The position numbers were made by a program, and so were the translations under genes. Positions 22,346-36,680 of a stretch of 37,554 nt of DNA are shown in pieces; within the stretch, counting starts at the first letter, position 1; each line of letters opens with the position of its first letter. The DNA is from Propionibacteriaceae bacterium. Its GTDB lineage: Bacteria; Actinomycetota; Actinomycetes; Propionibacteriales; Propionibacteriaceae. The notes beneath the pieces are model-generated. The model saw only the letters and a program-made list of their open reading frames with translations, had not been told where the DNA came from and searched no databases. The stretch lies in contig JAIRYW010000025.1 in the NCBI GenBank assembly GCA_031267645.1, positions 1-37,554 of the forward strand, in the 5' to 3' direction.

Positions 22346-22728
22346 AGCGAGTAACCGATGGCGCGCAGCTGCTCGCGCCCGTCCTCGGTGATGTTGTCCA
22401 GCGTCCAGGCCGGCAGCCAAACCCAGTTGATGGTGACGCTGGAGGCCAGCTCGCCCAACACCAGGTGGACGTCGTACTCCAACTGCTCGGTCAAGGGACA
22501 CATCGGCGAGGTCAGAGTCATGTCGATGGTGACGGCGCCCGACTGGTCGTCGCGCTCGACGCCGTAGACCAAGCCGAGGTCGACGATGTTGACGCCCAGC
22601 TCGGGGTCGACCACGTCTTTGAGGGCCTCGACCAAGTCGTCCAGACCAGGCGGCACCGAATCTGGCAAATCGTCCTTGACTAGGTCCGAGGGTCGGACCG
22701 GCCCGGTCGGCTCGGGTGTCTCAGTCAT
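22342..22728 (-). CDS. sufT: SufT-like MIP18/DUF59 iron-sulfur assembly protein
   Basis: A 128-aa protein starting at ATG 22728, chosen for its GGAGGG ribosome-binding site and the normal family length. The MIP18 domain covers roughly residues 35-120: DLVEALKDVVDPELGVNIVDLGLVYGV, then MTLTSPMCPLTEQLEYDV with the conserved TSPxCP cysteine, and VWLPAWTLDNITEDGREQL. The family helps mature or deliver Fe-S clusters. It overlaps sufU by 8 bp and the ABC-F gene by 4 bp. The same sufU-sufT order is found in mycobacteria (Rv1465-Rv1466). Confidence 0.93.
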   Translation of the reverse strand: MTETPEPTGPVRPSDLVKDDLPDSVPPGLDDLVEALKDVVDPELGVNIVDLGLVYGVERDDQSGAVTIDMTLTSPMCPLTEQLEYDVHLVLGELASSVTINWVWLPAWTLDNITEDGREQLRAIGYSL

Positions 22729-23182
22729 CGGTCCCTCCTGGGCTGGCCCGCCAAACGGCGTCACGGAATGCGGCCCAGCCCAGCATGGCGCATTTGACCC
22801 GGGCCGGGAATTGGGCCACGCCGCTGAAAGCCACGGCGTCGCCGTAGACCTCCTCGTCCAGCTCGACCCGGCCCTGTCCCTCCAACATGGCTTGGAAGCC
22901 GTCGTGCAGGCCAACTGCCTCATCCAGCCGCCGGCCGATCACCAGGTCGGACATGACCGAGGTCGAGGCCTGCGAGATGGAGCAGCCCTCGGCCAGGTAG
23001 GACAGGTCCTCCACCCGGTCGCCGGCCAGGGCCAGGCGCAAGACCAGCTCGTCGCCACAGGACGGGTTGACGTGGGTGACCTCGACCGAGTACGGCTGCC
23101 GCAGCCCGGCGTGGTGCTTGGCCCGGTAGTGGTCCAGGATGATCTCTTGGTAGAGCGACTCCAAACCCACGGCAGGCCTCAT
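22721..23182 (-). CDS. sufU: SufU-type Fe-S assembly protein (zinc-dependent sulfurtransferase)
   Basis: A 153-aa protein starting at ATG 23182, which overlaps the sufS stop by 4 bp (ATGA). It has the IscU/SufU fold with C42 and D44 in NPSCGDEL, C67 in AEGCSISQAS, and C131 in RVKCAMLGW, plus the SufU-specific insertion between the second and third cysteines. In Gram-positives SufU binds zinc and accepts persulfide sulfur from SufS to activate it; a scaffold role is the older proposal. The position after sufS and before sufT is conserved in actinobacteria. Confidence 0.94.
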   Translation of the reverse strand: MRPAVGLESLYQEIILDHYRAKHHAGLRQPYSVEVTHVNPSCGDELVLRLALAGDRVEDLSYLAEGCSISQASTSVMSDLVIGRRLDEAVGLHDGFQAMLEGQGRVELDEEVYGDAVAFSGVAQFPARVKCAMLGWAAFRDAVWRASPGGTDD

Positions 23183-24432
23183 TTCCGGCCCGGTCGGACC
23201 CGGAAGAATTCTAGAGTGGCGATCAAGGCCTCGATCAGCCGGTCGATCTCCCCGCGGGTGGTGTAGAGATAGCTCGAGACCCGGACCGAGGCGCCCATCT
23301 GGAAACGCCGATGCAGCGGTCGGGCGCAGTGGTGGCCGCCCCGCACGGCCACGCCGTAGGAGTCCAACACCTGCATGACGTCGTGCGGATGCAGGTCGGC
23401 CAGGCCGAAGGCGATGGCGCCGCCGCGGTCGGCCGGGTCGGCCGGACCGAGCAGGCGGACCTCCGGCAATTCGGCCAAACGGTCCAAGGCGTAGGCCGTG
23501 ATGTCGGCCTCGTGGCGGGCGATGGCGTCCATGCCCCAAGCGCTCAGATACTCGACCGCCGCGCCCAGTCCGACGGCCTGGGCGATGGGCGGGGTGCCGG
23601 CCTCGAAACGGTGGGGCGGACGGGCGTAGGTCGATCCCTCCATCCGCACCACTTCGATCATCTCGCCGCCGCCCAGGAAGGGCGGCATGGCCTCCAGCAG
23701 CTCGGAGCGGCCCCACAGCACGCCGATCCCGGTCGGCCCGGCCAGCTTGTGGCCGGTGAAGGCCAGCAGGTCGGCCCCCAACTCGGCCACGTCGCAGGGC
23801 CGGTGCGGCACGCCTTGGGAACCGTCCACCACCAGGCGGGCCCCGACGGCCCGGGCCTGGGCCGCGATCTGGGCCAGGGGGCTGACCGCCCCGGTCACGT
23901 TCGAGACCCAGGTCACAGCCACGATCTTGGTGCGCGGATTGATCAAGTCTTCGGCCGCCGCCCGCTCCAGGTCGAGCCGGCCCTCCTCGGTCAGGTCGAA
24001 CCAGCGCAGTTCGGCCCCGCTGCGCTGGCAGGCCATCTGCCAGGGCACGATGTTGGAGTGGTGCTCGGCCAACGACACCACCACCTGGTCGCCCGGCCCC
24101 AGGCCGGCCCCCAGGCTGTGGGCGGCCAGATTGAGGGCCTCGGTGGCGTTCTTAGTGAAGACGATCTCCTCCGGCCGCGCCCCCACGAAGGCGGCCACCC
24201 GCCCCCGCGCGCCCTCGAAGGCGGCCGTCGCCTCGGCCCCCAGCGTGTGCATGGCGCGCGCCACGTTGGCGTTGTGGCAGCGGTAGTGCTGGGCCTCGGC
24301 CTCGATCACGACGGCCGGCTTGTGGGCGGTGTTGGCCGAGTCCAAGTAGACCAGTTCGGCCGGGCCGATCCGACGGCTCAAGATGGGGAAGTCGCGCCTG
24401 ACCCGTTCGACGTCGATCGGGTCTGACGTCAT
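23179..24432 (-). CDS. sufS: Cysteine desulfurase SufS (group II, PLP-dependent)
   Basis: A 417-aa class V aminotransferase-fold enzyme that takes sulfur from cysteine to form a persulfide for Fe-S cluster assembly. YLDSANTAHKP is at the N-terminus, and LAEHHSNIVPWQ and VDGSQGVPH are in the PLP site. The Schiff-base lysine is K229 in FTGHKLAGPTG, and the catalytic cysteine is C369 in RGGHHCARPLHRRF, on the short loop typical of SufS. It lacks nothing expected. It overlaps sufC upstream and sufU downstream by 4 bp each. Confidence 0.96.
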   Translation of the reverse strand: MTSDPIDVERVRRDFPILSRRIGPAELVYLDSANTAHKPAVVIEAEAQHYRCHNANVARAMHTLGAEATAAFEGARGRVAAFVGARPEEIVFTKNATEALNLAAHSLGAGLGPGDQVVVSLAEHHSNIVPWQMACQRSGAELRWFDLTEEGRLDLERAAAEDLINPRTKIVAVTWVSNVTGAVSPLAQIAAQARAVGARLVVDGSQGVPHRPCDVAELGADLLAFTGHKLAGPTGIGVLWGRSELLEAMPPFLGGGEMIEVVRMEGSTYARPPHRFEAGTPPIAQAVGLGAAVEYLSAWGMDAIARHEADITAYALDRLAELPEVRLLGPADPADRGGAIAFGLADLHPHDVMQVLDSYGVAVRGGHHCARPLHRRFQMGASVRVSSYLYTTRGEIDRLIEALIATLEFFRVRPGRK

Positions 24433-25202
24433 GACGTCACCGTCTGCAGATACCGCTCGTAACCCGACTCCTCCAGTGCCTCGGCCAGATCGGGGCCGCC
24501 CTCCTGGGCGATCCGGCCGTCCACGAAGACGTGCACGAAATCAGGCTTGATGTGGCGCAGGATGCGGGTGTAGTGGGTGATCAGCAGGACCCCCCGGTCG
24601 CCCTGGGCGGCGTAACGGTTGACCCCGTCCGAGACCACCCGCAGGGCGTCGATGTCGAGACCGGAGTCGGTCTCGTCCAAGATGGCGTACTTGGGGTTGA
24701 GGAGGTCGAGCTGGACGATCTCGTGCCGCTTCTTCTCCCCCCCGGAGAAGCCCTCGTTGACGGACCGGCCGGAGAACTCAGAGTCCAACTGCATGCGGCC
24801 CAGAGCCTGGTCGACCTGCTTGACCCAACCGCGCAGGGGCGGAGCCTGGCCGGTCAGAGCGGTGCGGGCGGTGCGCAAGAAGTTCGACACCGACACCCCG
24901 GGCACCTCGACCGGATACTGCATGGCCAGGAAGAGGCCGGCCCGGGCCCGCTGCTCGACGCTCAAGCCGGTCAGCTCGAGGCCGTCCAAACGGACCGAGC
25001 CGGAGGTGATGGTGTACTTCGGGTGCCCGGCCAAGGAGTAAGCCAGGGTCGACTTGCCGGAGCCGTTGGGGCCCATGATGGCGTGGATCCGACCCGGTTC
25101 GAGCACCAGGTCGACGCCCTTGAGGATGGCTTTGGGGCCCTGCTCGGTCTGCACCGAGACGTGCAGGTCGGTGATCTCGAGGCCGCGCGGCTGATCTGTC
25201 AT
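24429..25202 (-). CDS. sufC: Fe-S assembly ATPase SufC
   Basis: A 257-aa ABC-type ATPase of the soluble SufBCD scaffold complex. Walker A is GPNGSGKST, the Q-loop AMQYPVEVPGV, the signature FSGGEKKRHEI, and Walker B AILDETDSGLD with the SufC-specific E-T-D-S-G-L-D. LITHYTRIL holds the switch histidine. ATG 25202 is used because an AAGGAG ribosome-binding site precedes it and MTDQPRGLEITDLHV is a natural start; the upstream open frame is a shadow of sufD. It follows sufD after 29 nt and overlaps sufS by 4 bp. Confidence 0.96.
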   Translation of the reverse strand: MTDQPRGLEITDLHVSVQTEQGPKAILKGVDLVLEPGRIHAIMGPNGSGKSTLAYSLAGHPKYTITSGSVRLDGLELTGLSVEQRARAGLFLAMQYPVEVPGVSVSNFLRTARTALTGQAPPLRGWVKQVDQALGRMQLDSEFSGRSVNEGFSGGEKKRHEIVQLDLLNPKYAILDETDSGLDIDALRVVSDGVNRYAAQGDRGVLLITHYTRILRHIKPDFVHVFVDGRIAQEGGPDLAEALEESGYERYLQTVTS

Positions 25203-25231
25203 GACTGGTTCTCCTTCAGCGTGGTGGGGGT

Positions 25232-26392
25232 CTATAGGGCGGGGCCGGTGGCCAGCTCGCGGTCGATCTTGTCCATCAGGACCTGCTCCACGTCGGGCAC
25301 GCCGATGCGGGCCACCAGTTGGGCGAAGAAGCCGCGCACGACCAAGCGGCGGGCCTCGTCCGGGTCCAATCCGCGCGAACGCAGATAGAACAGTTGCTCG
25401 TCGTCGAAGCGACCGGTCGAAGCCGAGTGGCCGGCCCCCACGATGTCGCCGGTCTCGATCTCCAAGTTGGGCACTGAATCGGCTCGGCAACCATCGGACA
25501 GGACCAGGTTCTTATTCGACTCGTAAGTCTCGATGCCCTGGGCCCGGGATCGGATCAAGACGTCGCCGACCCAGACCGCATGGGCCCGGCGGCCTTGCAG
25601 GGCCCCCCGGTAGTCGGCCAGCGACTTGCCCTTGGGGTGGTTGTGGTCGACGAACAGCCGGTGCTCGATGTGTTGGCCGGCGTCGCAGAAGTAGACGCCC
25701 AAGAGTTCGGCCGCACCGCTCGCCCCGGCGTAGGAGACATTGTTTTGGAGCCGGATCAGGTCGCCGCCCAGGGAGACCGCGATGTGACGGTAGGACGCCT
25801 TCGGATGGACCTTGGCCTCATGCTGGCCCAGATGCGACGAGCCGGGCCGCCAGTCCTGGATCGAGACCACGGTCAGCTGGGCGGACGGTCCGACCACGAT
25901 CTCGACGTTGCCCAGATAACGGCCCTGCCCGCCGTGGCGCAGCAGGACGGTGGCGCTGGAGCCGGCCTCGGCTTCGATCACCAGGTGGTGGGCGGCCAGA
26001 CCGGTCTCCGAATCGACCCGCAAGTCGAGGCGGATCGGCTGGTCGTAGCGGCGGCCGGCCGCCAGTCTCAGGTGGTCGGCTCGCTCGGCCCGGGCGCTGG
26101 CCAGCGCGGCCGCCCGGTCGACCGGGACCAGGACCGAGCCCCGACTGCCCTGGCCCGGACTCAAGGGTTCGGCCCAGCAGCCCTGGTCCGAAGTCCGGGT
26201 CACGGCCACCGCCGCCGCCGCGGGGTCGGCCCAGATCGGCTGGAGCTGGTCCAAGGGCGTGAAACGCCAGATCTCCTCCCGGCCGGTCGGCTCGGGATGG
26301 TCGGCCAAGTCGAACGAGCCGGCCGGATGGAGATGACTGACGGTGCGGGTCTCGAGCGGCCCGGCGGCCAGGGGGGAGTTTCCTTCTGCCAT
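25232..26392 (-). CDS. sufD: Fe-S assembly scaffold protein SufD
   Basis: A 386-aa SufBD-fold protein that partners SufB and SufC in building [4Fe-4S] clusters. The N-terminus has the substrate-like EEIWRFTPLDQLQPIW. The long central beta-helix follows, and the conserved C-terminal block reads GHSASTGRFDDEQLFYLRSRGLDPDEARRLVVRGFF. The histidine of GAGHSAS corresponds to the conserved SufD cluster-site region. The ATG follows the sufB stop with no intervening base, so it depends on terminating ribosomes. Confidence 0.95.
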   Translation of the reverse strand: MAEGNSPLAAGPLETRTVSHLHPAGSFDLADHPEPTGREEIWRFTPLDQLQPIWADPAAAAVAVTRTSDQGCWAEPLSPGQGSRGSVLVPVDRAAALASARAERADHLRLAAGRRYDQPIRLDLRVDSETGLAAHHLVIEAEAGSSATVLLRHGGQGRYLGNVEIVVGPSAQLTVVSIQDWRPGSSHLGQHEAKVHPKASYRHIAVSLGGDLIRLQNNVSYAGASGAAELLGVYFCDAGQHIEHRLFVDHNHPKGKSLADYRGALQGRRAHAVWVGDVLIRSRAQGIETYESNKNLVLSDGCRADSVPNLEIETGDIVGAGHSASTGRFDDEQLFYLRSRGLDPDEARRLVVRGFFAQLVARIGVPDVEQVLMDKIDRELATGPAL

Positions 26393-27832
26393 CTAGCCGA
26401 CCGCGCCTTCCATTTGCAATTCGATCAGTCGATTGAGCTCCAAGGCGTACTCCATCGGCAGCTCGCGGGCGATCGGCTCGACGAAGCCGCGCACGATCAT
26501 GGCCATCGACTCCTCTTCGGTCAAGCCCCGGCTCATGAGATAGAAGAGCTGGTCCTCGCTGACCTTGGAGACGGTCGCCTCGTGCGCCATCGAGACGTCC
26601 TCCTCGCGCACGTCGACGTAAGGGTAGGTGTCGGAGCGCGAGACGGTGTCGACCAGCAGGGCGTCGCAGCGCACCGAGGAGGCCGAGTGATGGGCTCCGG
26701 GGGCGACGTGGACCAGGCCGCGGTACGAGGCCCGCCCGCCGCCCCGGGCGACCGACTTGGAGACGATGGTGGAGGAGGTGTGGGGGGCGGCGTGGACCAT
26801 CTTGGCGCCGGTGTCCTGGTGTTGGCCCGGCCCGGCGAAGGCGATCGACAGGGTCTCCCCCTTGGCCCGGGGCCCGAGCAGCCAGCAGGCCGGGTATTTC
26901 ATGGACGCCTTCGAGCCGATGTTGCCGTCGATCCACTCCATGGTGGCGTCCTCGGCGCAGGTGGTGCGCTTGGTCACCAGGTTGTAGACGTTGTCGGACC
27001 AGTTCTGAATGGTGGTGTACCTGGCCCGGGCGCCCTTGCACAGGATGATCTCGACCACGGCGGAGTGGAGCGAGTCCGTCTTGTAGATCGGGGCGGTGCA
27101 ACCCTCGACGTAATGGACCTGAGCCCCCTCGTCGACGATGATCAAGGTACGTTCGAACTGGCCCATGTTCTCGGTGTTGATGCGGAAGTAGGCCTGCAGC
27201 GGGATCGCCACCTGGACGCCCTTGGGCACGTAGATGAAGGAGCCGCCGGACCAGACGGCCGTGTTGAGGGCGGCGAATTTGTTGTCTCCGGCCGGCACCA
27301 CCGAGCCGAAGTGGCGTTCGAAGATCTCCGGGTGCTGCTTCAGGCCGGTGTCGGTGTCGAGGAAGACGACGCCTTGGCGCTCCAACTCCTGGTTGATCTT
27401 GTGGTAGACCACCTCGGACTCGTACTGGGCCGCCACCCCGGCCACCAGCCGCTTCTTCTCGGCTTCGGGGATGCCCAGCCGGTCGTAGGTGGTCCGGATG
27501 TCGGCCGGCAGATCCTCCCAGTCGGTGGCTTGGCGCTCGGTCGACTTGACGTAGTACTTGATGGTGTCGAAATCGATCCCGCTCAGATCGGCCCCCCAGG
27601 TCGGCATCGGTTTGAGCCAGAACAGCTCCAACGCCTTCAGTCGCCGCTCCAGCATCCAGGCCGGTTCTTGTTTGCGGGCCGAGATGTCGCGCACGACGGC
27701 CTCGTCCAAACCGCGGCGGGCGCTGGCCCCGGCTTGGTCGGAGTCGTGCCATCCGAAACGGTATTTGCCGAGTGCGGCCAGGTGCTCGTCCTGGGTCGCC
27801 CCTAGGCCGGGCGCCGCTGGGGGCGTCGTCAC
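26393..27832 (-). CDS. sufB: Fe-S assembly scaffold protein SufB
   Basis: A 479-aa scaffold protein of the SufBCD complex. Recognisable parts are YRFGWHDSD near the N-terminus, [44 protein letters not shown], a Cys-rich central region ([44 protein letters not shown]) and the C-terminal [24 protein letters not shown]. The start is GTG 27832, with AGGAGG 5 nt upstream, overlapping the sufR stop by 4 bp. There is no intein, unlike mycobacterial SufB. The length is standard. Confidence 0.96.
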
Positions 27833-28548
27833 ATTTCCTCCTGGTCTCCCGCGACCGGACGCGGGATATGGGTGGTGCAGATGCCATCGCCGTGGGCGAT
27901 GGTGGCCAGGCGCTGGACGTGGGAGTCGAGCAGACGGGAGAAAGCCGCCGTCTCGGCCTGGCAGAACTCGGGGAAACGGGCCGCCACCGCCGAATAGGGG
28001 CAGTGGTGCTGACGCAGTTGCTGGCCCGAGGTGATGGGGGCCAGGTCGGCCATGAAGCCGAGGTCGCGCAGGACCTGGGACAGGACTTGGGCCGGGCTCA
28101 GATCGGGCTGGACCGCCCCCAATTCGAGGCAATCGGCCGCCACGGCGTCGAATTTGCGCTGGGCGAAGTCGCGCACGGCCTGTTGGCCGCCCAGTCGACG
28201 CAGATCCTCCAGCACCTCGATGGCCAGTTCGTCGTAAGCGTGGACGAACTGCCGCCGACCTTGTTCGGTCGGCTGCCAGGCCGTGGCCGGGCGGCCCGGC
28301 CCCCGTCTGGGAACGGTCGTGGAGCGTCGCACACCGACCAACCCCTGGGCCTGCAAAGCGGCCAAGTGGCGACGAACGGCCGCCTGGGTCAGACCCAGGA
28401 GGTCGGCCAAGTGCGCGGCCGTGGCATGGCCCTGTTCCATGATCAGGGCCATGATCTGACGTCGAGTCGAGGGCTGCCGGTCAGCCTCCCCCGACTGTGA
28501 AAACCGCTCCGACACTGAGTCCGGTTGGTCGATAGCGGCGAGATTCAC
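27829..28548 (-). CDS. sufR: SufR-type Fe-S-sensing transcriptional repressor of the suf operon
   Basis: A 239-aa regulator with an N-terminal winged helix-turn-helix ([30 protein letters not shown]) and a C-terminal cluster-binding region with cysteines in [14 protein letters not shown] and GICTTHI. SufR proteins carry a [4Fe-4S] cluster and repress suf genes until iron-sulfur stress. The cysteine pattern here fits that, like Rv1460. I start at GTG 28548 because AAGGA lies 7 nt upstream; a TTG at 28584 in the same frame would add 12 residues but has a ribosome-binding site that is too close. It is the first suf gene, 67 nt after ptsI, and overlaps sufB by 4 bp. No clear operator palindrome was identified in the gap. 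Confidence 0.9.
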
Positions 28549-28615
28549 AACGACATCCTTGCGTAATCCGCGCGACTTGGCCAATCCCCCCGGGCCGAGG
28601 CCTCTCAGCTAAGTC

Positions 28616-30250
28616 TCAGGGCTCGGCCAGGTCCAGTTCGCGCACCCGCTGCCGCAACGGCAGGACGACGGTCGGAGCGACCGACAGCTCGTCCACCCCC
28701 AGGCGCAGGAAATGCTCGGTCAAGGACAGGTCGCCGGCCAACTCGCCGCAGATGCCGACCCAGGCCCCGTGCCGATGGCCGTTGTCCACCACCTGTCCGA
28801 TCAGACGCAGGACGGCTTCGTGGCGGGGGTCGCAGAACTCCTCCAGGTCCAGGTTCTGCCGGTCCACCGCCAGGGTGTACTGAGTCAGGTCGTTGGTGCC
28901 GATGGAGAAGAAGTCGACCTCGGGGGCCAACCGGTCGGAGCAGATGGCGGCGGCCGGAGTCTCGACCATGACGCCGAACTCGATCGGCTCGGCCACCGGA
29001 CACCCTTCCGCCAGCAGCTCGGCCTTGATCTGGGCCAGCAGGGCCTTGACCCGTTGGACCTCGCTCAGCGAGGCGATCATCGGGGCCATCAGGGCGACCC
29101 GGCCGAAGGCCGAGGCCCGCAGCAGGGCGCGCAGCTGACGGTGGAAGACGTCCGGCCGGCGCAGACAGAGCCGGACCCCGCGCAGACCCAGAGCCGGGTT
29201 GTCCTCCTGGGGCAGGTCGAGGTAGGCGATCTGTTTGTCCGCCCCGACGTCGAGGGTGCGGAAGACCACCCGTTTCGGGGCCAGCTCCTGAGCCACCTGG
29301 CGGTAGACCTCGAACAACTCATCCTCGCTCGGCTGCTGAGCCGCCTCCATGTAGGCGAACTCGGTCCGGAACAAGCCCACCCCGCCGGCGTCGTTGTCCC
29401 GGACGGCGGCCAGCTCCGAGGTCGAGCCGATGTTGGCGTGGATCTCGATCCGGCGGCCGTCCAAGGTGACGTCGGGCTGTCCGCGCAGCTCTTCCAAAAG
29501 TTGTTTACGCTGTTCGTCGGATTGTTTCTTCTCCAGCAAGCGGCGCAAGGCCGGCTGGTCCGGACGGATCAGGACTTGGCCGGAGAAGCCGTCCACCACG
29601 GCGTACTCGCCGTCCCAGTCCGGATCGAGCGGACCGACCCCGACCACGGCCGGGATGCCCAGGCTGCGGGCCAAGATGGCCGAGTGCGAATTGGTCGAGC
29701 CGCCCGCCGTGACGAAGGCCAGCACCTTCGACTTGTCCAATTGGACCGTCTCGGACGGGCTGAGGTCGTCGGCCACCACGATGACCGGCTCGTCCGCCCC
29801 CAGGCCGACCCCGGCCCGCCCGGTCAGACAGCGGATGACCCGCTCCGAGACGTCGTTGACGTCGGCCGCCCGCTCCCGCAGGTAAGGGTCGTCCAACTCG
29901 GACAGCTGGGCGGCGAAGTTGGCCCCCGTGACCGAGACGGCGAATTCGGCGTTGACCCTCTGCGAGGCCAGCACCGAGCGCACGTTGTCGCAGTAGTCCT
30001 CGTCCCGCAGCATCATCTGGTGGACTTCGAAGACGGCGGCGGACTGCTCCCCGGCCTCGGCCAGAGCCTTGGCCTGGAGCTGGCCCAATTCGGCCACGGC
30101 CTGGTCGCGGGCGGCCTGGAAACGCTCGTACTCGGCCTCGCAATCCTCCACCTGGCGGCGCACGACCGGGCCCAGATCACGCTTGACGAAGCGCAGGTCG
30201 CCGACCGCGACGGCCCCGTAGACTCCTTTGCCGGTCAGCTGGATCATCAT
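28616..30250 (-). CDS. ptsI: PTS phosphoenolpyruvate-protein phosphotransferase (Enzyme I)
   Basis: This 544-aa cytosolic protein takes phosphate from PEP and passes it to HPr. The phosphorylated histidine is H189 in GGSTNSHSAILAR, with one residue more than the usual GGRTSH form. The PEP-binding domain has GVGLFRTEFAYM, APMIASLSEV, GVMVETPAA, FFSIGTNDLTQYTLAVDR and the acid-base cysteine C501 in GICGELAGD. The start ATG 30250 overlaps the preceding dehydrogenase stop by 4 bp (ATGA); a second ATG follows at once. It is the last gene of the PTS operon. About 25 residues shorter than many EI proteins, but all key sites are present. Confidence 0.96.
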   Translation of the reverse strand: MMIQLTGKGVYGAVAVGDLRFVKRDLGPVVRRQVEDCEAEYERFQAARDQAVAELGQLQAKALAEAGEQSAAVFEVHQMMLRDEDYCDNVRSVLASQRVNAEFAVSVTGANFAAQLSELDDPYLRERAADVNDVSERVIRCLTGRAGVGLGADEPVIVVADDLSPSETVQLDKSKVLAFVTAGGSTNSHSAILARSLGIPAVVGVGPLDPDWDGEYAVVDGFSGQVLIRPDQPALRRLLEKKQSDEQRKQLLEELRGQPDVTLDGRRIEIHANIGSTSELAAVRDNDAGGVGLFRTEFAYMEAAQQPSEDELFEVYRQVAQELAPKRVVFRTLDVGADKQIAYLDLPQEDNPALGLRGVRLCLRRPDVFHRQLRALLRASAFGRVALMAPMIASLSEVQRVKALLAQIKAELLAEGCPVAEPIEFGVMVETPAAAICSDRLAPEVDFFSIGTNDLTQYTLAVDRQNLDLEEFCDPRHEAVLRLIGQVVDNGHRHGAWVGICGELAGDLSLTEHFLRLGVDELSVAPTVVLPLRQRVRELDLAEP

Positions 30251-31512
30251 GGCCGACCGCCCCGGGCGGCCAGCAGGATGGTCTCGGCCTCGGCGTTCCA
30301 CAGGCCCTGGTGACGGTCGCAGGCGGCGGCCAGTTGGGCGAAGAGCGGGTCCGAGCGGCCCAACTCGGCGAAGTCGTCGATCGCCGTCAGGGGCAGTTCG
30401 ACGCCCGGATAGGTCAATTTCTTGCCCCCCGGCAATCGCGGCAGTTCGGTCACGGTCGGGATGATCGCATCGATGCCGCCGATGTGACTGACCATGACGG
30501 CGGGACGGATCTGGCCGGCGGCGGCCAGGGCCAGCCCCTCTTTCAAGTCGTCGGTGCTGCCGCCCGTGGTGCCGATCAGATGGGTCGAGCCGTAGTGGGT
30601 GTTGTAGAGGTTGATCTCGGCCTTGAAGTCGGCCTGGGCCGGGCCGGCGAAGAAGTTGAGACAGCCGTCGAAGGCCAGCAGGCGGTCGCCCAGTTCGACC
30701 AGCGGCCGGATCGGGGCGAAGACGAAGACGTCGTCGTAACCCCGGCCGTCGGTCAGCCCGCGCAGACCGGCTTCGGCCTGGTCGAAGTCGTCCGGGTTGA
30801 CGAAGCGAAGGTCGACGCCCCGGCCGCCGGCCAGTTCCGGCGGCGTCAATCGGCTGGCCCGGGCCAAGCGGGCCGGGTCGACGTCCGTCACCACCACCAG
30901 ACCGGGCCGCTCGACGGCGGCCAGAGCGTATTCGACGGCGGCCTGGCCCATCGGTCCGGCCCCGCCCAGGATCAGGACGGCGCCGCCGGGCTTGACCCCC
31001 ATGACGTGCCCGGGGCTGTGGCTGTCAGTGTGGTAGCAGGCCCGGTAGCCGCCGATGACGCAGGAGATGGGCTCGCCCAGCGAAGCCGAGAAGTAGCTGT
31101 CGCCGTCGTAAGGCAGCAGGCAGCCCAGTTCCATGACCTCGGGCGGGATGACGCAATAGGTGCAGGAGCCGCCGAAGAATTGGTACGAGTAGCCCGGCGA
31201 GTCGAGCCGGCCCTGCCAGTTGAGGGCGGGCTGTTGGGCGAATCTTTGGCCGGCCGCGAACTGGTCGCGCCAGCGCGCCCCCACTTCGACGATGTCGCCG
31301 GCGAACTCGTGGCCGATGATGACGGGATGGCGGTCGACGTCCTGGGGACAGCGTTTGTGCTGTTTGCCCTGGATCAGGAGCTTGTGGGTCGACATGCAGA
31401 TGGAGTCGGAGACGATCCGGACCAGGATCTCGTCTTCCCGTAGCGGTGGCAGTTCGAACTCCTCCAGGCGCAGGTCGTTGGCGCCGTAGAGGCGGACGGC
31501 TCGGGTTCTCAT
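30247..31512 (-). CDS. L-sorbose-1-phosphate reductase (SorE)-like zinc-dependent medium-chain dehydrogenase
   Basis: A 421-aa MDR-superfamily oxidoreductase. Catalytic zinc ligands are Cys in DSICMSTHK, His-Glu in VIIGHEFAG, and Glu in LGEPISCVIG; the four-cysteine structural zinc lobe is absent. The cofactor fold is LILGGAGPMGQ (about residue 180). The blocks GCLNFFAGPAQADF, THLIGTTGGSTDDLKEG and ELPRLPGGKKLTYPG are what I recognise as SorE-specific. SorE reduces L-sorbose-1-P at C2 to D-glucitol-6-P. It sits between a FruK-like kinase and ptsI, in an operon with a mannitol-type PTS and no MtlD. I infer that the real substrate is mannitol-1-P, oxidised at C2 to fructose-1-P. A GAGGAG site precedes the ATG. 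Confidence 0.85.
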   Translation of the reverse strand: MRTRAVRLYGANDLRLEEFELPPLREDEILVRIVSDSICMSTHKLLIQGKQHKRCPQDVDRHPVIIGHEFAGDIVEVGARWRDQFAAGQRFAQQPALNWQGRLDSPGYSYQFFGGSCTYCVIPPEVMELGCLLPYDGDSYFSASLGEPISCVIGGYRACYHTDSHSPGHVMGVKPGGAVLILGGAGPMGQAAVEYALAAVERPGLVVVTDVDPARLARASRLTPPELAGGRGVDLRFVNPDDFDQAEAGLRGLTDGRGYDDVFVFAPIRPLVELGDRLLAFDGCLNFFAGPAQADFKAEINLYNTHYGSTHLIGTTGGSTDDLKEGLALAAAGQIRPAVMVSHIGGIDAIIPTVTELPRLPGGKKLTYPGVELPLTAIDDFAELGRSDPLFAQLAAACDRHQGLWNAEAETILLAARGGRP

Positions 31513-31529
31513 GCTTCAGTCTCCTCGCT

Positions 31530-32459
31530 TCAGATGGCTTCCAGCCGCACCAGCGGCAATAGTTGTTCGATCAAAGGGCGGTCCGGCGGCTTGGTCCCCT
31601 CGGTGGTGACTGCCCCGGCCGAGCCGGCCATGGCCCAAGCGGCCGCCTGGGCCCAGTCCAGACCCCGTTCGGCGGCCAGGGCCAGGGCCGCCACCATGGC
31701 GTCGCCCGCCCCCACCGTGGAACGCACCGGCACCGCCAGGGGGCCGGACCGCCAGACTTGGTCGGCGGTCACGAAGATCGCGCCCTGGTCGCCCAGCGAG
31801 ACCACCAGCCGAGGCAGGCCAGCCGCCACCTGGGCCCGGGCCACGGCGACCACTCGGTCGCAGTCGAGGTCGTCCGGCAGCCCGGCCAACTGGGCCAGTT
31901 CGTGGCGATTGGGTTTGATCAGATCGGGCCGCTCGGCCAGGGCGGCGGCCAGGGCCGGCCCGTCGGCGTCCAGGTAGGCCAGGCCGCCGGCGGCGTGGAT
32001 GGAGCGGATCAGACGGGCGTAGAAGTCGTCCGGCAGCCCCCGGCACAGGCTGCCGGACAACACCACCACGGCTCCCCCGGCCGCCGCGGCCACCTTGCGC
32101 TCCAAAGCGGCCGCCTCGGCGGCGTCGACCTCGACCCCCGGCTCGTTCAGCTCGGTCAAGCCGAAGTCGCGGTCGATCACTTTAAGGTTGGTCCTGGTCT
32201 GGCCGGCCACGACCACGAAGTCGCTCCGAATGGCCGGGTCGCCCGCCAGCCGACGTACGATGTCGTCGCCCACCGGGCCGCCCACGAAGCCGGTGGCGAC
32301 CGATCGGCCGCCCCAGGCGGCGATGGCCCGAGAGACGTTGACGCCCTTGCCGCCGGCGTCGCTGACGGCCGGGCCGACTCGGTTGAGCCGCCCTGGCCGC
32401 AGGCGGTCGATCTGGACCGTCCGGTCCAGGGCCGGGTTGACGGTGACGGTGACGATCAT
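31530..32459 (-). CDS. fruK: 1-phosphofructokinase-type PfkB-family sugar-phosphate kinase
   Basis: A 309-aa ribokinase-fold enzyme. The N-terminal TVTVNPALDRTVQIDRL and DAGGKGVNVSRAIAAWGG are the FruK/LacC pattern. LNEPG is also typical of this subgroup, as is SGSLCRGLPDDFYARLI. The catalytic motif is STVGAGDAMVAALALA, with the base Asp in GAGD. FruK converts fructose-1-P to fructose-1,6-bisphosphate; LacC uses tagatose-6-P and PfkB fructose-6-P. FruK activity is favoured because the next gene encodes a dehydrogenase likely to make fructose-1-P. The gene lies 6 nt after the EIIA stop and 17 nt before the SorE-like gene, so it is tightly linked in the PTS operon. Confidence 0.86.
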   Translation of the reverse strand: MIVTVTVNPALDRTVQIDRLRPGRLNRVGPAVSDAGGKGVNVSRAIAAWGGRSVATGFVGGPVGDDIVRRLAGDPAIRSDFVVVAGQTRTNLKVIDRDFGLTELNEPGVEVDAAEAAALERKVAAAAGGAVVVLSGSLCRGLPDDFYARLIRSIHAAGGLAYLDADGPALAAALAERPDLIKPNRHELAQLAGLPDDLDCDRVVAVARAQVAAGLPRLVVSLGDQGAIFVTADQVWRSGPLAVPVRSTVGAGDAMVAALALAAERGLDWAQAAAWAMAGSAGAVTTEGTKPPDRPLIEQLLPLVRLEAI

Positions 32460-32465
32460 GTCGCC

Positions 32466-32909
32466 TCAGACGCTGAGCAGGTCGTAGAAGAGGTCGGCGT
32501 CGCCGCTGGCCACGGCCTGGAGCACCTTGTCCTCCTGGTCGAAGGCGTCGGCGATCCGGGCCAAGACCTCCAGATGCTCCTCGCCTTGGGCGGCGATGCC
32601 GATGACCAGCCGGACGTCGACGCCGTGCCAGTCGATCCCGTCCGGGTAGGTCAGCACCGTCAGGCCGGTCCGACGGATGGCGGCCTTGCCTTCGACCTCG
32701 CCGTGCGGGATGGCGATGGCGTTGCCGATGGCGACGGAGAACTTGGCGTCCCGGGCCAACATCGAGTCGATGTAGGCCGGCTCGACGTGGCCTCCGGCCA
32801 GCAGCCACTGGCCGCAACGGCGGATGGCCGCCTCGGGCGGCTCGCTGGCCAGGCCGGTGTGGATCAGGGCCCGGTCCAGGATCGGGGGCACGGCGGCGTC
32901 GGTGGGCAT
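32466..32909 (-). CDS. mtlF: PTS mannitol/fructose-family EIIA component (MtlF-like)
   Basis: A 147-aa cytosolic phosphocarrier. The active-site histidine is H69 in NAIAIPHGEVEG, with the partner histidine in GEEHLEVLARIADAF. Both are standard for the Fru/Mtl EIIA fold. Length fits a free-standing MtlF rather than a fused domain, matching the EIICB protein in the same operon, which lacks an A domain. It would accept phosphate from HPr H15 and give it to the EIIB cysteine. It is 6 nt downstream of the regulator gene and 6 nt upstream of the kinase gene. Confidence 0.92.
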   Translation of the reverse strand: MPTDAAVPPILDRALIHTGLASEPPEAAIRRCGQWLLAGGHVEPAYIDSMLARDAKFSVAIGNAIAIPHGEVEGKAAIRRTGLTVLTYPDGIDWHGVDVRLVIGIAAQGEEHLEVLARIADAFDQEDKVLQAVASGDADLFYDLLSV

Positions 32910-32915
32910 GTTCGG

Positions 32916-34880
32916 TCAACCTTTCAAGGAGTTTTCGAAGTCACGGATGAGGAATTGGCGCAGGAGGCCCTGCAGTCGGGCCAGGACCCGATCGTGGCGG
33001 TGGCGCAGAATGTCGTCCAGGAAGCCCTCGGCCTCGACCAGGGCGCCCGACAGATGTCCCATCAACTCGGTCCGACCGGGTCGGTCGGCAGCCGGGACCA
33101 ACATCACGACGCCGGCTCGGACCGACCGCAGGGCGCCCCGACGGAAGGAACCGCCGACCGGGCTCAGGAGGGCGAAGACGGGGGCCTCCACCCCAGCCGT
33201 GCGACAGTGCAGCAAGACCAGGCCGAGCTCCGGCACGACTTGGCTGGCGACCCTCTCCCGCTCCATCAGGTCGTTGAAGATGAACTTGCCCGACTCGGCC
33301 TCGCCGCCGAAACGGTAGCCGACCAGACGGGCCAACCGTTCCAGGCTGGAGTCAGCCGCCACGTCCAAGCTGACGAAGCCAGTCGTCAAGGCGACGATGT
33401 CGGCGCTCAAGCGCCCCAGACGGGAGCAGAGTTGGACCAAGTCGGTGCTCCCGACCGGATCGGACCGGCTGCGCCGGGGCGACTGGGTCGAAGCGGCCAG
33501 GGCCAGCTTGACGCGCTGGGCGGCGGCTCGGTCCAAGACCGGCGGCGTCTCCACCACCGGGACCGGGCAATCCGGCAGAGGCACGGTCGAGACCACCAGA
33601 TCGAGGTCGTCCCAGCCGGATTCCAGACTGGAGACCTCGAAGCGGGCCCGAGCCCCGAAGGCTTGGCGCAGCTGAGCGGCCAAGAGGTACGAGCTGCCGA
33701 TGCCGTGCAGGCAGACCACTGCCACCTGAGGGCGGCGACGCCAGGCCCCGCGTTCCTCCAAACGGTGCAGGGCGGCTCCGAAGTGGGCGGCCAGGAAACC
33801 GACCTCGCTGTCCGGGACCGGCCGGCCGCCGGCCAAACGGTCGGCCGCCCGGGTCGCCTGGTCGACCACGTCGGGGTAGCGGACGGCCAGCTGTTCGGTC
33901 AGGGAGCCGCCCAGGTCGATGCCTTGGTCGAGCCGCACCAGGGCCGACTCCAAGTGGGCCGAGAGACCTTCGACCAAGTCCCGGTCCAATTTCAGCAACG
34001 GGGCCAGACGGGGGTCGAAGGCCTCGATCAAACGGAAGACCAAGCGCTGGCGGTCGTAGTCAGGAGCGGCTTCGAGCGGCTGGTTGGGCCGGCAGGCCGC
34101 CAACATGACGGACAGGGCGTCCGTCTCGACCGGCGGCCACGGATCCGGGACCTGATCGACCAGGCAATCGGCCAGACGCCGGGCCAGGTCGAGTTGGCCC
34201 GGGTTGGCCGGGGCCGGATCGGCGTTGTGGCCCTGTCGCAGCCGGACTATGACGGCGGCCAGATAGGAGCGCAGGGCCGTCACCGACTCGGCGGTCATCC
34301 AACTGGTCATCTGTGCCATCGGCTGGGTCCAGATCGGCGCGACCTCCCCGACCGGTTGGCCCAAGCCGGCCAACTCGCCCCAAGCCCAGACCATGGCCCG
34401 GCGGGCGGCCTGTTCGCCGCCTTCGCTGTAGACGCCACGCCCTTGCCGCCGGATGACGCGCCAGCCGACCGGATCGACCGCCTTCTCCAAACGAGCCAGG
34501 TCGACGCTGAGAGTGGCTTCCGAGACCCCCAGCTGGCTGGCGTACCAACTCAGCTTGACCGGACCCGGCCCGCTTTCGATCAGCAGCAAGGCCAAACGGG
34601 GCAGCCGCTCGTGCCGGTCGGGCGGATCCGGACTGGTCCGCTCCAGGTCCTCCAACAGCCGGCTCCGAGCCGCCTCGGGGCCGACCAGGGTCAGGCCCCG
34701 ACCGGTTGCGGAGGTCAAGCTGAGACCGTAGCCGGCCAGGCTCTGATCGGCCCACTCCAATTCGCGGAAGACGGTCCGGCGCGACACCCGCAAGCGCTCG
34801 GCCAGCTGGCTGACCGGCAAGGGATCCGGTTCCAGCGCCAGCCAGCGCAAGATCTGGCTGGCTCTCGCCGATGGGGCCAT
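32916..34880 (-). CDS. mtlR: MtlR/BglG-family PTS-regulated transcriptional activator
   Basis: This 654-aa regulator starts at ATG 34880, chosen for its GAGGAAG site and because the first HTH begins at once (ASQILRWLALEPDPLPVSQLAERLRVSRRTVFRELEWA). A second HTH (LSWYASQLGVSEATLSVDLARLEKA) follows, then two PRD modules (second with EVGFLAAHFGAALHRL), a GatB-like EIIB domain with its cysteine in VVCLHGIGSSYLLAAQL, and a C-terminal EIIA-like domain with His in LVLLHCRTAGV. This is the MtlR architecture: phosphorylation by EI/HPr and EIIA/EIIB tunes activity. Its place inside the operon, between HPr and EIIA, implies it controls this operon. It is an activator binding DNA rather than an RNA antiterminator, by family analogy. 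Confidence 0.9.
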   Translation of the reverse strand: MAPSARASQILRWLALEPDPLPVSQLAERLRVSRRTVFRELEWADQSLAGYGLSLTSATGRGLTLVGPEAARSRLLEDLERTSPDPPDRHERLPRLALLLIESGPGPVKLSWYASQLGVSEATLSVDLARLEKAVDPVGWRVIRRQGRGVYSEGGEQAARRAMVWAWGELAGLGQPVGEVAPIWTQPMAQMTSWMTAESVTALRSYLAAVIVRLRQGHNADPAPANPGQLDLARRLADCLVDQVPDPWPPVETDALSVMLAACRPNQPLEAAPDYDRQRLVFRLIEAFDPRLAPLLKLDRDLVEGLSAHLESALVRLDQGIDLGGSLTEQLAVRYPDVVDQATRAADRLAGGRPVPDSEVGFLAAHFGAALHRLEERGAWRRRPQVAVVCLHGIGSSYLLAAQLRQAFGARARFEVSSLESGWDDLDLVVSTVPLPDCPVPVVETPPVLDRAAAQRVKLALAASTQSPRRSRSDPVGSTDLVQLCSRLGRLSADIVALTTGFVSLDVAADSSLERLARLVGYRFGGEAESGKFIFNDLMERERVASQVVPELGLVLLHCRTAGVEAPVFALLSPVGGSFRRGALRSVRAGVVMLVPAADRPGRTELMGHLSGALVEAEGFLDDILRHRHDRVLARLQGLLRQFLIRDFENSLKG

Positions 34881-34936
34881 GGCCCACTTCCTCTCGTCGC
34901 TAGACCCAGCCCCGGCGGCGGCCGGCTGGGCGCTGG

Positions 34937-35008
34937 CCGGACCGCTCAGCGGTCGGTCCGGCGGGGGCGGTCGGTCACAGCCACTGGCCCGGACCGCGCC
35001 GACCGCCC
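34937..35008 (-). promoter_or_regulatory. Intercistronic hairpins between the HPr and regulator genes
   Basis: The 134-nt gap holds several inverted repeats. A 10-bp perfect stem pairs 34965-34974 (GGGCGGTCGG) with 34999-35008 over a 24-nt loop, starting 6 nt after the HPr stop. Next to it GACCGC (34940-34945) can pair with GCGGTC (34949-34954), or alternatively CCGGACC (34937-34943) with GGTCCGG (34955-34961); these two pairings exclude each other. Such structure could reduce mtlR expression relative to HPr or stabilise the upstream mRNA; this is inference. Confidence 0.4.
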
Positions 35009-35014
35009 GGGACA

Positions 35015-35275
35015 CTAAATCCCTTCCGTGGCCAGGACCTGCCGCAGAGCCTCGGCCGCGGCGGCCTCGTCCGGACCGTCGCAGCTGAATTGGACCAGAT
35101 CGCCGCCCTTGACGGCCAAGCTCATGACGGCGAACAACTTCTTGGCGCTGACCGTGCGGTCGGCCCGGGTCAGTTGGATCTGGCTGGCATGGGCTTGGGC
35201 CTGCTGGACCAGGCGGCCGGCCGGGCGGGCGTGCAAACCGGCCGGATCGGTGATGGTGTGGTCGAAGACGATCAT
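35015..35275 (-). CDS. ptsH: PTS phosphocarrier protein HPr
   Basis: An 86-aa protein starting at ATG 35275 behind a strong AGGAGGAG site; earlier codons of the frame are not HPr-like. The phosphorylated histidine is exactly H15 in AGLHARPAG. Position 46, Ser in Gram-positive HPr regulated by HPr kinase, is Lys (SAKKLFAVMS), so HPrK-type control is not expected, as is usual in actinobacteria. VMSLAVKGGDLV matches the following helix. It passes phosphate from EI to EIIA and probably to MtlR. It lies 22 nt after the EIICB gene. Confidence 0.95.
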   Translation of the reverse strand: MIVFDHTITDPAGLHARPAGRLVQQAQAHASQIQLTRADRTVSAKKLFAVMSLAVKGGDLVQFSCDGPDEAAAAEALRQVLATEGI

Positions 35276-35297
35276 CGTTGACTCCTCCTGGGGCGCT

Positions 35298-36680
35298 TCA
35301 GACCGAGGACCTGTCAGCGGCCAACTCCGCGACCAGGCTGTCATATTCCGGGGCGCCCATGAAGTTGGTGATCAGAACCAGTCGGGCGGTCGGATTGGCT
35401 TGGGCGGCCCGTTCCGCCAACTCGTGGTGGGTGACCACGATCTGGGCGTCGGGCGGGATGTCCGAGACCGCCGCGTGGACCACTTCCAATCCGGTCAGCC
35501 CGGCTTGGGCCAACTTCTTGCGCAGCATGGTCGCGCCCATGGCCGACGAACCCATGCCGGCGTCGCAAGCGAAGACGATCCGGCTGACGGTCGCGGCCGG
35601 CGCGGCGACGGCCCCACCCTTGGACTCCGCCTTTAGGTCGGCCGTCTGACGTTGGGCCAAGGACAGATCGCCGTCTTTGCCGAACAAGCGCAGGAGCAGG
35701 CAGGAGACGGCGAAGGAGACGGCGGCGGCGATCGCGATGGCCAGGATGTTGGCGATGAAGCCCCCCTTCGGGGTCATGGCCAACTCGGCGAAGATGGAGC
35801 CCGGCGAGGCCGCCGCCACCAGTCCGCCGTTCATGACCTGGAGCGTGAAGATGGCGCAGACATTGCCCGCGATCGGACCCAAGATGACGATCGGGTTCAT
35901 CAGCACGTAGGGGAAATAGATCTCATGGATGCCGCCCAGGAACTGAATGATGATGGCCCCGGGGGCGGAGGCTTTGGCCGCGCCCCGGCCCAGCAGGGCG
36001 TAGGCCAACAGCAGACCCAGGCCCGGACCGGGGTTGGACTCGATCATGAAGAAGATCGACTTGCCCACTTCGGCCGCCTGCTCGACGCCCAAGGGCGTGA
36101 AGACACCGTGGTTGATGGCGTTGTTGAGGAAGAGGACCTTGGCCGGCTCGACCAGGATGGCGGTCAGAGGCAGGATCGAATGGTCGACCAGGAATTGGAC
36201 GCCGGCGCCCAACCAACCGGTCAGAGCGACGCAGAGCGGATTGATGCCGAGCAGGCCGATGACGGCCAGACAGCCGCCGATGATACCGGCCGAGAAATTG
36301 TTCACCAGCATCTCGAAGCCGGGTTTGATCCGACCGGCGACCAGCCGGTCGAAGCCCTTGATGGCCAGGCCGCCCAGGGGGCCGGCCATCATGGCTCCCA
36401 GGATCATCGGGACGTCGGCGCCGATGATGACGCCGAAGCCGGCGATGGCGCCGACCACGGCGCCGCGCTGTTTGGCCACGACATGGCCGCCGGTGTAGGC
36501 GATCAGCAGCGGGATGAGGTACTTCAGCATCGGGTCGACCAATTGGGCCAGGGCCGAGTTCGGCGTCCAGCCGTCGGGAATGAACAAGGCCGTGATCAAA
36601 CCCCAGGCGATGAAGGCGCCGATGTTGGGCATGACCATGCTGGACAAGAATCGTCCCGCTCGCTGTATGGACTGCTTCAT
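35298..36680 (-). CDS. mtlA: PTS mannitol-specific EIICB permease (MtlA type)
   Basis: This 460-aa membrane permease imports and phosphorylates mannitol (or a close hexitol). ATG 36680 is chosen for its AAAGGAG site and because MKQSIQRAGRFLSSMVMPNIGAFIAWG is the typical MtlA start. The EIIC domain (about 1-340) has multiple hydrophobic helices and the substrate loop GGIHEIYFPYVLMNP with the key Glu. A linker rich in Ala leads to the EIIB domain with the phosphocysteine C372 in FACDAGMGSSAMGA. There is no EIIA domain; mtlF supplies it. Mannitol is the best guess; glucitol-type PTS permeases belong to another family. Confidence 0.94.
   Translation of the reverse strand: MKQSIQRAGRFLSSMVMPNIGAFIAWGLITALFIPDGWTPNSALAQLVDPMLKYLIPLLIAYTGGHVVAKQRGAVVGAIAGFGVIIGADVPMILGAMMAGPLGGLAIKGFDRLVAGRIKPGFEMLVNNFSAGIIGGCLAVIGLLGINPLCVALTGWLGAGVQFLVDHSILPLTAILVEPAKVLFLNNAINHGVFTPLGVEQAAEVGKSIFFMIESNPGPGLGLLLAYALLGRGAAKASAPGAIIIQFLGGIHEIYFPYVLMNPIVILGPIAGNVCAIFTLQVMNGGLVAAASPGSIFAELAMTPKGGFIANILAIAIAAAVSFAVSCLLLRLFGKDGDLSLAQRQTADLKAESKGGAVAAPAATVSRIVFACDAGMGSSAMGATMLRKKLAQAGLTGLEVVHAAVSDIPPDAQIVVTHHELAERAAQANPTARLVLITNFMGAPEYDSLVAELAADRSSV

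Follow-up and report, generated by a model that had tools for sequence, protein, structure and literature searches.

A seven-gene phosphotransferase system operon of a Propionibacteriaceae bacterium predicted to route mannitol through fructose-1-phosphate

The window, by which we mean the whole stretch of 37,554 nucleotides analysed here, is a contig (JAIRYW010000025.1) of the 2.85 Mb, 98.6% complete genome of a Propionibacteriaceae bacterium. Its minus strand carries, from position 36680 to 28616, seven genes encoding a phosphotransferase system (PTS) Enzyme II (EII) of the EIICB type, the phosphocarrier HPr, an MtlR-like regulator, an EIIA, a FruK-type kinase, a zinc-dependent medium-chain dehydrogenase/reductase (MDR) and Enzyme I (EI). 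This seven-gene operon is real and complete, and with a probability of about 0.72 we read it as a self-contained mannitol PTS pathway that runs via fructose-1-phosphate. The original prediction had named the mannitol-type EIICB and EIIA, the SorE-like MDR and the FruK-like kinase, all of which were found at the coordinates given, on the minus strand; HPr, EI and the MtlR-like regulator of the same operon had been left out of its title and reasoning.

In the proposed route, the phosphate of phosphoenolpyruvate (PEP) would be relayed by EI, HPr and EIIA to EIICB, which would take up mannitol and phosphorylate it to mannitol-1-phosphate. The zinc dehydrogenase, a SorE-like enzyme, would then oxidise mannitol-1-phosphate at C2, beside the phosphorylated carbon, to D-fructose-1-phosphate, and FruK would phosphorylate this product at C6 to give fructose-1,6-bisphosphate, which would join glycolysis, bypassing fructose-6-phosphate. 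The analysis itself establishes the gene set, the conserved catalytic motifs, the family memberships, the absence from the genome, as far as searched, of MtlD, of a second FruK and of a second PF02378 or a sorbose-type EII, and the pairing of the genes across lineages. What we infer is which substrate is used, that the dehydrogenase acts at C2 and in which direction its reaction runs.

Operon content and stereochemistry of the proposed route

The seven genes, in the order of transcription, are:

35298..36680, minus strand: mannitol-type PTS EIICB (MtlA), predicted mannitol transport and C1 phosphorylation
35015..35275, minus strand: HPr phosphocarrier (PF00381, TIGR01003), with a GLHARPAG motif
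32916..34880, minus strand: MtlR-like transcription regulator with HTH_11 and PRD domains
32466..32909, minus strand: EIIA of the mannitol type (MtlF-like; PF00359), with the active-site motif AIPHG
31530..32459, minus strand: FruK-type 1-phosphofructokinase of the PfkB family (TIGR03828), predicted to convert fructose-1-phosphate to fructose-1,6-bisphosphate
30247..31512, minus strand: SorE-like zinc MDR dehydrogenase, proposed mannitol-1-phosphate 2-dehydrogenase
28616..30250, minus strand: EI (PtsI; TIGR01417, 531 bits at a cut-off of 342), with the histidine motif GGSTNSHSAILAR

The EIICB passed both curated mannitol PTS cut-offs (TIGR00851, 492 bits against 468; NF011663, 657 bits against 589), and its GGIHE motif and IIB cysteine motif ACDAGMGSSAMG are intact, so that by cut-offs and motifs it belongs to the MtlA family. 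It is closer to E. coli MtlA (59.4% identity over 463 aa) than E. coli's own CmtA is to MtlA (52.7%). The best NCBIfam model for the EIIA was the IIA part of mannitol IICBA, at a score below the whole-protein cut-off of that model. The phosphorylation motifs were found to be intact in EIIB, EIIA, HPr and EI. The HPr gene starts with an ATG at 35275 that is preceded by an AGGAGG-like site, the regulator starts with the ATG at 34880 (with the alternative in-frame GTG at 35015, its gene would share bases with the HPr stop codon), and the EI gene, with its ATG at 30250, begins before the dehydrogenase gene has ended. Homologues of the MtlR-like regulator are present in equivalent operons elsewhere.

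The kinase passed the cut-off of the FruK equivalog model TIGR03828 (294 bits against 292), while remaining far below those of the LacC and Pfk-2 models. It was the only TIGR03828 match in the window genome at E <= 1e-40, and the four weaker PfkB-type matches scored 63 bits or less each. In a search for the families PF02378 and PF03609, the genome revealed one PF02378 EIIC, the operon's own, and no sorbose-type EII, which leaves no other PTS of these types to supply the FruK of the window. MtlD (mannitol-1-phosphate 5-dehydrogenase), which the original prediction had noted as missing from the operon, was found neither there nor, as far as searched, in the 98.6% complete genome, and no canonical mtlARFD set was found in either; the sole Mannitol_dh_C match lies on another contig in an open reading frame (ORF) after an apparent UxaC and gave 41 bits with E. 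coli MtlD.

Stereochemistry would link the dehydrogenase to the kinase. Read from the phosphate end, C2 to C5 have the configuration L,L,R,L in glucitol-6-phosphate and L,L,R,R in mannitol-1-phosphate. Oxidation at C2 converts glucitol-6-phosphate to L-sorbose-1-phosphate and mannitol-1-phosphate to D-fructose-1-phosphate, of which only D-fructose-1-phosphate is the substrate of FruK. By computation over ten hexitols, with configurations taken from general knowledge, the L,L,R of SorE was fitted by D-mannitol and D-glucitol only, in keeping with the original argument that the C2 to C4 configuration produced by SorE is that of D-mannitol-1-phosphate.

The operon is adjoined by a suf iron-sulfur cluster gene set, identified by reading ORFs at 22342-28584 of the window; its SufR-like regulator (27829-28584), which borders the PTS genes, scored 87 bits with a SufR model that has its cut-off at 179.

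Gene neighbourhoods and phylogeny of dehydrogenase and kinase

The genomes of 84,980 species were scanned for the dehydrogenase, and the 80 best among 569 confirmed stretches, together with 10 loci from the order of the window, the window itself and six loci from annotated plasmid records, made up a set of 97 loci. Neighbours were counted by tblastn, and a locus was called MtlA-linked when an MtlA-type EII lay within 5 kb. The set is redundant, as it includes two E. coli loci and the near-copies L067/L068/L074/L077 and L101/L106.

An MtlA-type EII was found in 67 of the 97 loci, accompanied by FruK in 46, by YggC in 11, by neither in 10 and by both in none. MtlD was detected in two of these 67 and a short-chain dehydrogenase/reductase (SDR) match in one, L066, where it scored 82 bits and lay on the opposite strand. 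The 30 loci without MtlA held a SorD-matching SDR in 15 cases (three with a sorbose EII), FruK in three (two at contig ends), YggC in none, and none of these partners in 12. Collapsing the set at 80% identity left 30 clusters with MtlA (FruK 21, YggC 7, neither 2) and 22 without (FruK 2, SDR 10, none 10). This pattern, with a ketose-1-phosphate kinase beside MtlA in most loci, SDRs resembling sorbitol-6-phosphate dehydrogenase where MtlA is lacking and operon FruKs that come from several lineages, is the one that the proposed route would predict.

Three of the 15 SDRs were close matches to SorD (314-551 bits) and 12 were weak (62-124 bits, 23-32% identity). Six of the weak ones were scanned, and sorbitol-6-phosphate dehydrogenase was the best NCBIfam model in all six, above the cut-off in L069 (353 bits against 307) and below it in the other five (217-235 bits). 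In these six loci (L067, L069, L081, L091, L103 and L105), a SorE-like dehydrogenase thus stands beside an SDR closest to sorbitol-6-phosphate dehydrogenase, with no MtlA and no sorbose EII detected in the loci; they perhaps encode a sorbose or sorbitol phosphate pathway with another uptake system.

The window dehydrogenase is a zinc MDR that fell below every curated NCBIfam cut-off (best model IolM, 68 bits against 450), and a structure model confirmed no more than the zinc MDR fold. Its identity is 45-47% with SorE as annotated in enterobacteria and 51-52% with E. coli YggP, including copies of YggP that are unannotated in E. coli; it is a relative of SorE. Residues H52, K53 and K364 and those of the zinc site are conserved in 98% or more of the 97 relatives, SorE included, as would be expected if the phosphate were held in the same place; a pocket role of these residues is suggested by their conservation.

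The dehydrogenase tree divides as the neighbourhoods do, into a clade with MtlA and YggC that includes YggP (support 100), a group in which SorE joins loci without MtlA in the best tree (98 SH-aLRT) and a 44-row MtlA-linked clade within which the window falls (support 98). The position of SorE is not secure: forcing it together with the window, L020 and L021 was not rejected in the approximately unbiased test (p-AU 0.187), nor was forcing it into the 44-row clade of the window (p-AU 0.52). The window operon has neither the SorD-type SDR nor the mannose-type sorbose EII of a SorE operon. Of the original label "SorE-like", the homology therefore stands, whereas identity as SorE does not follow; likewise, the phylogenetic check proposed with it, whether the dehydrogenase falls outside the SorE group, ends in a best tree that separates the two and a joint clade that is not rejected.

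Among 48 operon kinases, 43 scored about at or above the FruK cut-off and none reached that of LacC or Pfk-2; as controls, E. coli FruK, L. lactis LacC and E. coli Pfk-2 gave 337, 275 and 261 bits with TIGR03828. In a 70-row kinase tree, a single clade for all 48 operon kinases was rejected (p-AU 0.0027), while one clade for 38 of them was allowed (p 0.60). Nine operon kinases share a clade (support 99) with six FruKs from elsewhere in the carrier genomes, and five of these six have a strong FruA match adjacent to them (189-279 bits; the sixth, 69 bits). The Anaerospora kinase clusters with FruK of E. coli, Xanthomonas and Deinococcus (support 97). Some operon FruKs are similar to those of ordinary fructose operons, which is what a dehydrogenase with fructose-1-phosphate as its product would lead one to expect. 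We read the occurrence of FruKs of several lineages beside MtlA and the dehydrogenase as repeated recruitment, and it is this convergent pairing that speaks most strongly for fructose-1-phosphate as the product of the dehydrogenase.

The gene order DeoR-FruK-MtlA-dehydrogenase was seen in two operons, L041 (by Pfam) and L040 (by a look at the sequence). A GlmS-like gene (glucosamine-fructose-6-phosphate aminotransferase) adjoins the MtlA-dehydrogenase pair in L040, L041 and L052, its domains being confirmed in L041 and judged by a look at the sequence in the others; further along in L041 come a PGI gene and MtlD.

The seven-gene order of the window recurs in seven other loci (L030, L037, L038, L039, L042, L044 and L046), which implies that the grouping is not due to chance. 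As deposited, the labels of their metagenome-assembled genomes are Treponema/Spirochaetes for five, Planctomycetota for one and Propionibacteriaceae for one. These loci and the window cluster together in both the dehydrogenase tree (support 85) and the kinase tree (support 95), which suggests that the whole self-sufficient module has moved between phyla.

Among 245 genomes of the window's order, an MtlA-type EIICB was found in 79, a dehydrogenase of the window type in 11 and MtlD at more than 250 bits in five. Because MtlA without MtlD is common in this order, it is by itself no evidence for the C2 route. Twenty MtlA regions were read from the 79 genomes (L147-L166): 15 have an MDR that scored 79-92 bits with that of the window (SDH-like where read), three an MDR at 153-155 bits and two MtlD. 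In the EIICB tree, where the label SDHlike also covers the three loci at 153-155 bits, an MtlD-linked EII has an SDH-like-linked one as its nearest neighbour in two cases (L150/L148 and L166/L165, both with support 100), so the transporter is retained as the dehydrogenase is exchanged. A FruK-like kinase is also present in four of the 15 regions with SDH-like or similar MDRs (L154, L155, L159 and L165). The MDR type at 153-155 bits occurs in L156, L157 and L158 (2092-3828); the L158 example is a frame of 578 aa, with EI on one side and MtlA/EIIA on the other.

Weighing the alternatives

Several observations weigh against the fructose-1-phosphate route. The window FruK lies only 2 bits above its cut-off, and five of the 48 operon kinases lie below it, among them that of G213, a genome of the window's genus, which at 272 bits does not exceed the LacC control (275 bits). 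G213 keeps FruK and the dehydrogenase (L021, 7210-9729), and no MtlA-type EIICB was found in its genome. The FruK of L063, one of the nine in the clade shared with FruKs from elsewhere, probably belongs to an adjoining fructose operon. Ten of the 67 MtlA-linked loci have neither FruK nor YggC nearby, and Roseburia porci (L052/G266), in which MtlA and the dehydrogenase are present, gave no TIGR03828 match at E <= 1e-40. Of 56 carrier genomes, eight encode an MtlD-like protein that scored at least 170 bits; those of L031, L040 and L041 encode the three best matches (49% identity), and the gene lies 4.5 kb from the dehydrogenase in L031 and 3.8 kb in L041. The genome survey that had been proposed, for MtlA with SorE-like and FruK-like genes and no MtlD, is answered by FruK in 46 of the 67 MtlA-linked loci and by an MtlD-like protein in eight of the 56 carrier genomes. 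One carrier, Ruminiclostridium cellobioparum subsp. termitidis CT1112, resembles the window genome in its single FruK and single PF02378 EIIC, with no MtlD scoring above 170 bits. Eubacterium barkeri is mannitol-positive according to the available part of PMC12029686, a growth value that is uninformative since an EIICB-MtlD-EIIA set is also present. A phenotype comparison based on mannitol growth data of named carriers was dropped for this reason, the E. barkeri value being the only readable one.

It is conceivable, and in our view unlikely, that the dehydrogenase oxidises mannitol-1-phosphate at C5, as MtlD does, to fructose-6-phosphate, with the FruK-like protein acting as a 6-phosphofructokinase. 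The narrow margin of the window kinase would agree with this, as would the relatives with closely related MtlA that carry a different, SDH-like MDR in the place of MtlD, an indication that MDRs can be part of a mannitol pathway. However, 43 of 48 operon kinases about reach the FruK cut-off, which E. coli Pfk-2 misses by 31 bits and L. lactis LacC by 17, and FruKs like those of fructose operons would be unsuited to this reaction. Nor does a route via fructose-6-phosphate call for a kinase of its own: E. coli mtlADR is annotated without one, and no kinase could be detected next to the EIICB-MtlD-EIIA set of E. barkeri. The C2 to C4 configuration would also admit, by Fischer-projection reasoning, D-arabitol (giving D-xylulose-1-phosphate) or a heptitol such as volemitol (giving sedoheptulose-1-phosphate), and the related cmt-yggP locus of E. 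coli adjoins transketolase and carries GlpX; still, 59% identity to E. coli MtlA and kinases of the FruK type favour a hexitol and fructose-1-phosphate, which makes another polyol quite improbable.

Import of sorbitol, with glucitol-6-phosphate being oxidised to L-sorbose-1-phosphate by SorE chemistry in reverse, is allowed by stereochemistry and is nevertheless given very little credence here, as it would leave FruK without a substrate and the EIICB is MtlA-like. The original prediction had objected to a related alternative, L-sorbose use via glucitol-6-phosphate, that the glucitol-6-phosphate dehydrogenase it needs is not present and that FruK is left unexplained. The operon has no SorD-like gene; at E <= 1e-20, four SDRs of the window genome matched SorD of Klebsiella, with scores of up to 97 bits, and these are of the FabG or glucose-dehydrogenase type by best model, with sorbitol-6-phosphate dehydrogenase absent from the best 25 models of each. 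SDRs resembling that enzyme are instead partners of relatives without MtlA.

Conversion of mannitol-1-phosphate to fructose-1-phosphate as the substrate of FruK, as originally proposed, is supported by the stereochemistry and by the comparative gene pairing, and the operon is probably a PTS polyol operon whose dehydrogenase chemistry differs from that of the textbook route. The claim of a possible new mannitol route has to be qualified in that the gene system is not confined to the window; it occurs widely, and its superfamily includes E. coli cmtBA-yggP.

Relation to known systems

A search of titles and abstract starts in the open-access literature, with subscription journals outside its scope, revealed no description of an oxidation of mannitol-1-phosphate to fructose-1-phosphate. 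If the proposed route is true, the textbook rule of MtlD and fructose-6-phosphate for PTS mannitol would have a common exception among anaerobes and others, and organisms of this kind would be overlooked when mannitol use is predicted from MtlD. A gene family could be assigned to an enzyme activity that has no name so far, and direct tests of yggP and yggC, two uncharacterised genes of E. coli, would become possible.

The MtlA/MtlF/MtlR/MtlD mannitol PTS of E. coli, Thermoanaerobacter kivui and others has the same EII and EIIA families, and mannitol enters as mannitol-1-phosphate; the window operon differs in having a zinc MDR and FruK in place of MtlD, whose product is given as fructose-6-phosphate in the available part of PMC7522397, and in containing HPr and EI. 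The L-sorbose operon sorCDFBAME shares the homologous dehydrogenase SorE (45-47% identity in enterobacteria), which, in the part of PMC12817954 available, reduces sorbose-1-phosphate to sorbitol-6-phosphate. There, in contrast to the window operon, SorE is accompanied by an SDR (SorD) and a mannose-type EII, and no FruK was seen. The mannitol pathway of Haloarcula hispanica, as set out in the available part of PMC11519228, ends like the proposed route with fructose-1-phosphate, fructose-1-phosphate kinase and fructose-1,6-bisphosphate; it differs in its ABC uptake, the oxidation of free mannitol to free fructose and the use of ketohexokinase, no phosphorylated polyol being involved. Fructose PTS operons, with a DeoR-type regulator, FruK and FruA, have fructose-1-phosphate and the FruK step in common with the proposed route, and L040 and L041 resemble such an operon in which the fructose EII has been exchanged for a mannitol EII and the dehydrogenase.

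The E. coli genes cmtB-cmtA-yggP-glpX-fumE-yggC (L110, 6127-11481, next to tkt), named a cryptic mannitol PTS, share with the window an MtlA-type EII, EIIA, the dehydrogenase family (51% identity) and a kinase. YggC stands where the window has FruK, and GlpX is added. YggC is placed in a "nucleoside/nucleotide kinase family" for which no sugar substrate is given, and no function of the cmt-yggP-yggC locus was found in the literature searched. As a conjecture, if YggP too makes fructose-1-phosphate, YggC would phosphorylate it, and GlpX would lead back to fructose-6-phosphate. We tentatively suggest, as a doubtful generalisation, a second widespread bacterial mannitol pathway via fructose-1-phosphate, assembled repeatedly around the SorE-related family, of which E. 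coli cmtBA-yggP-glpX-yggC would be a version with YggC as a non-homologous fructose-1-phosphate kinase.

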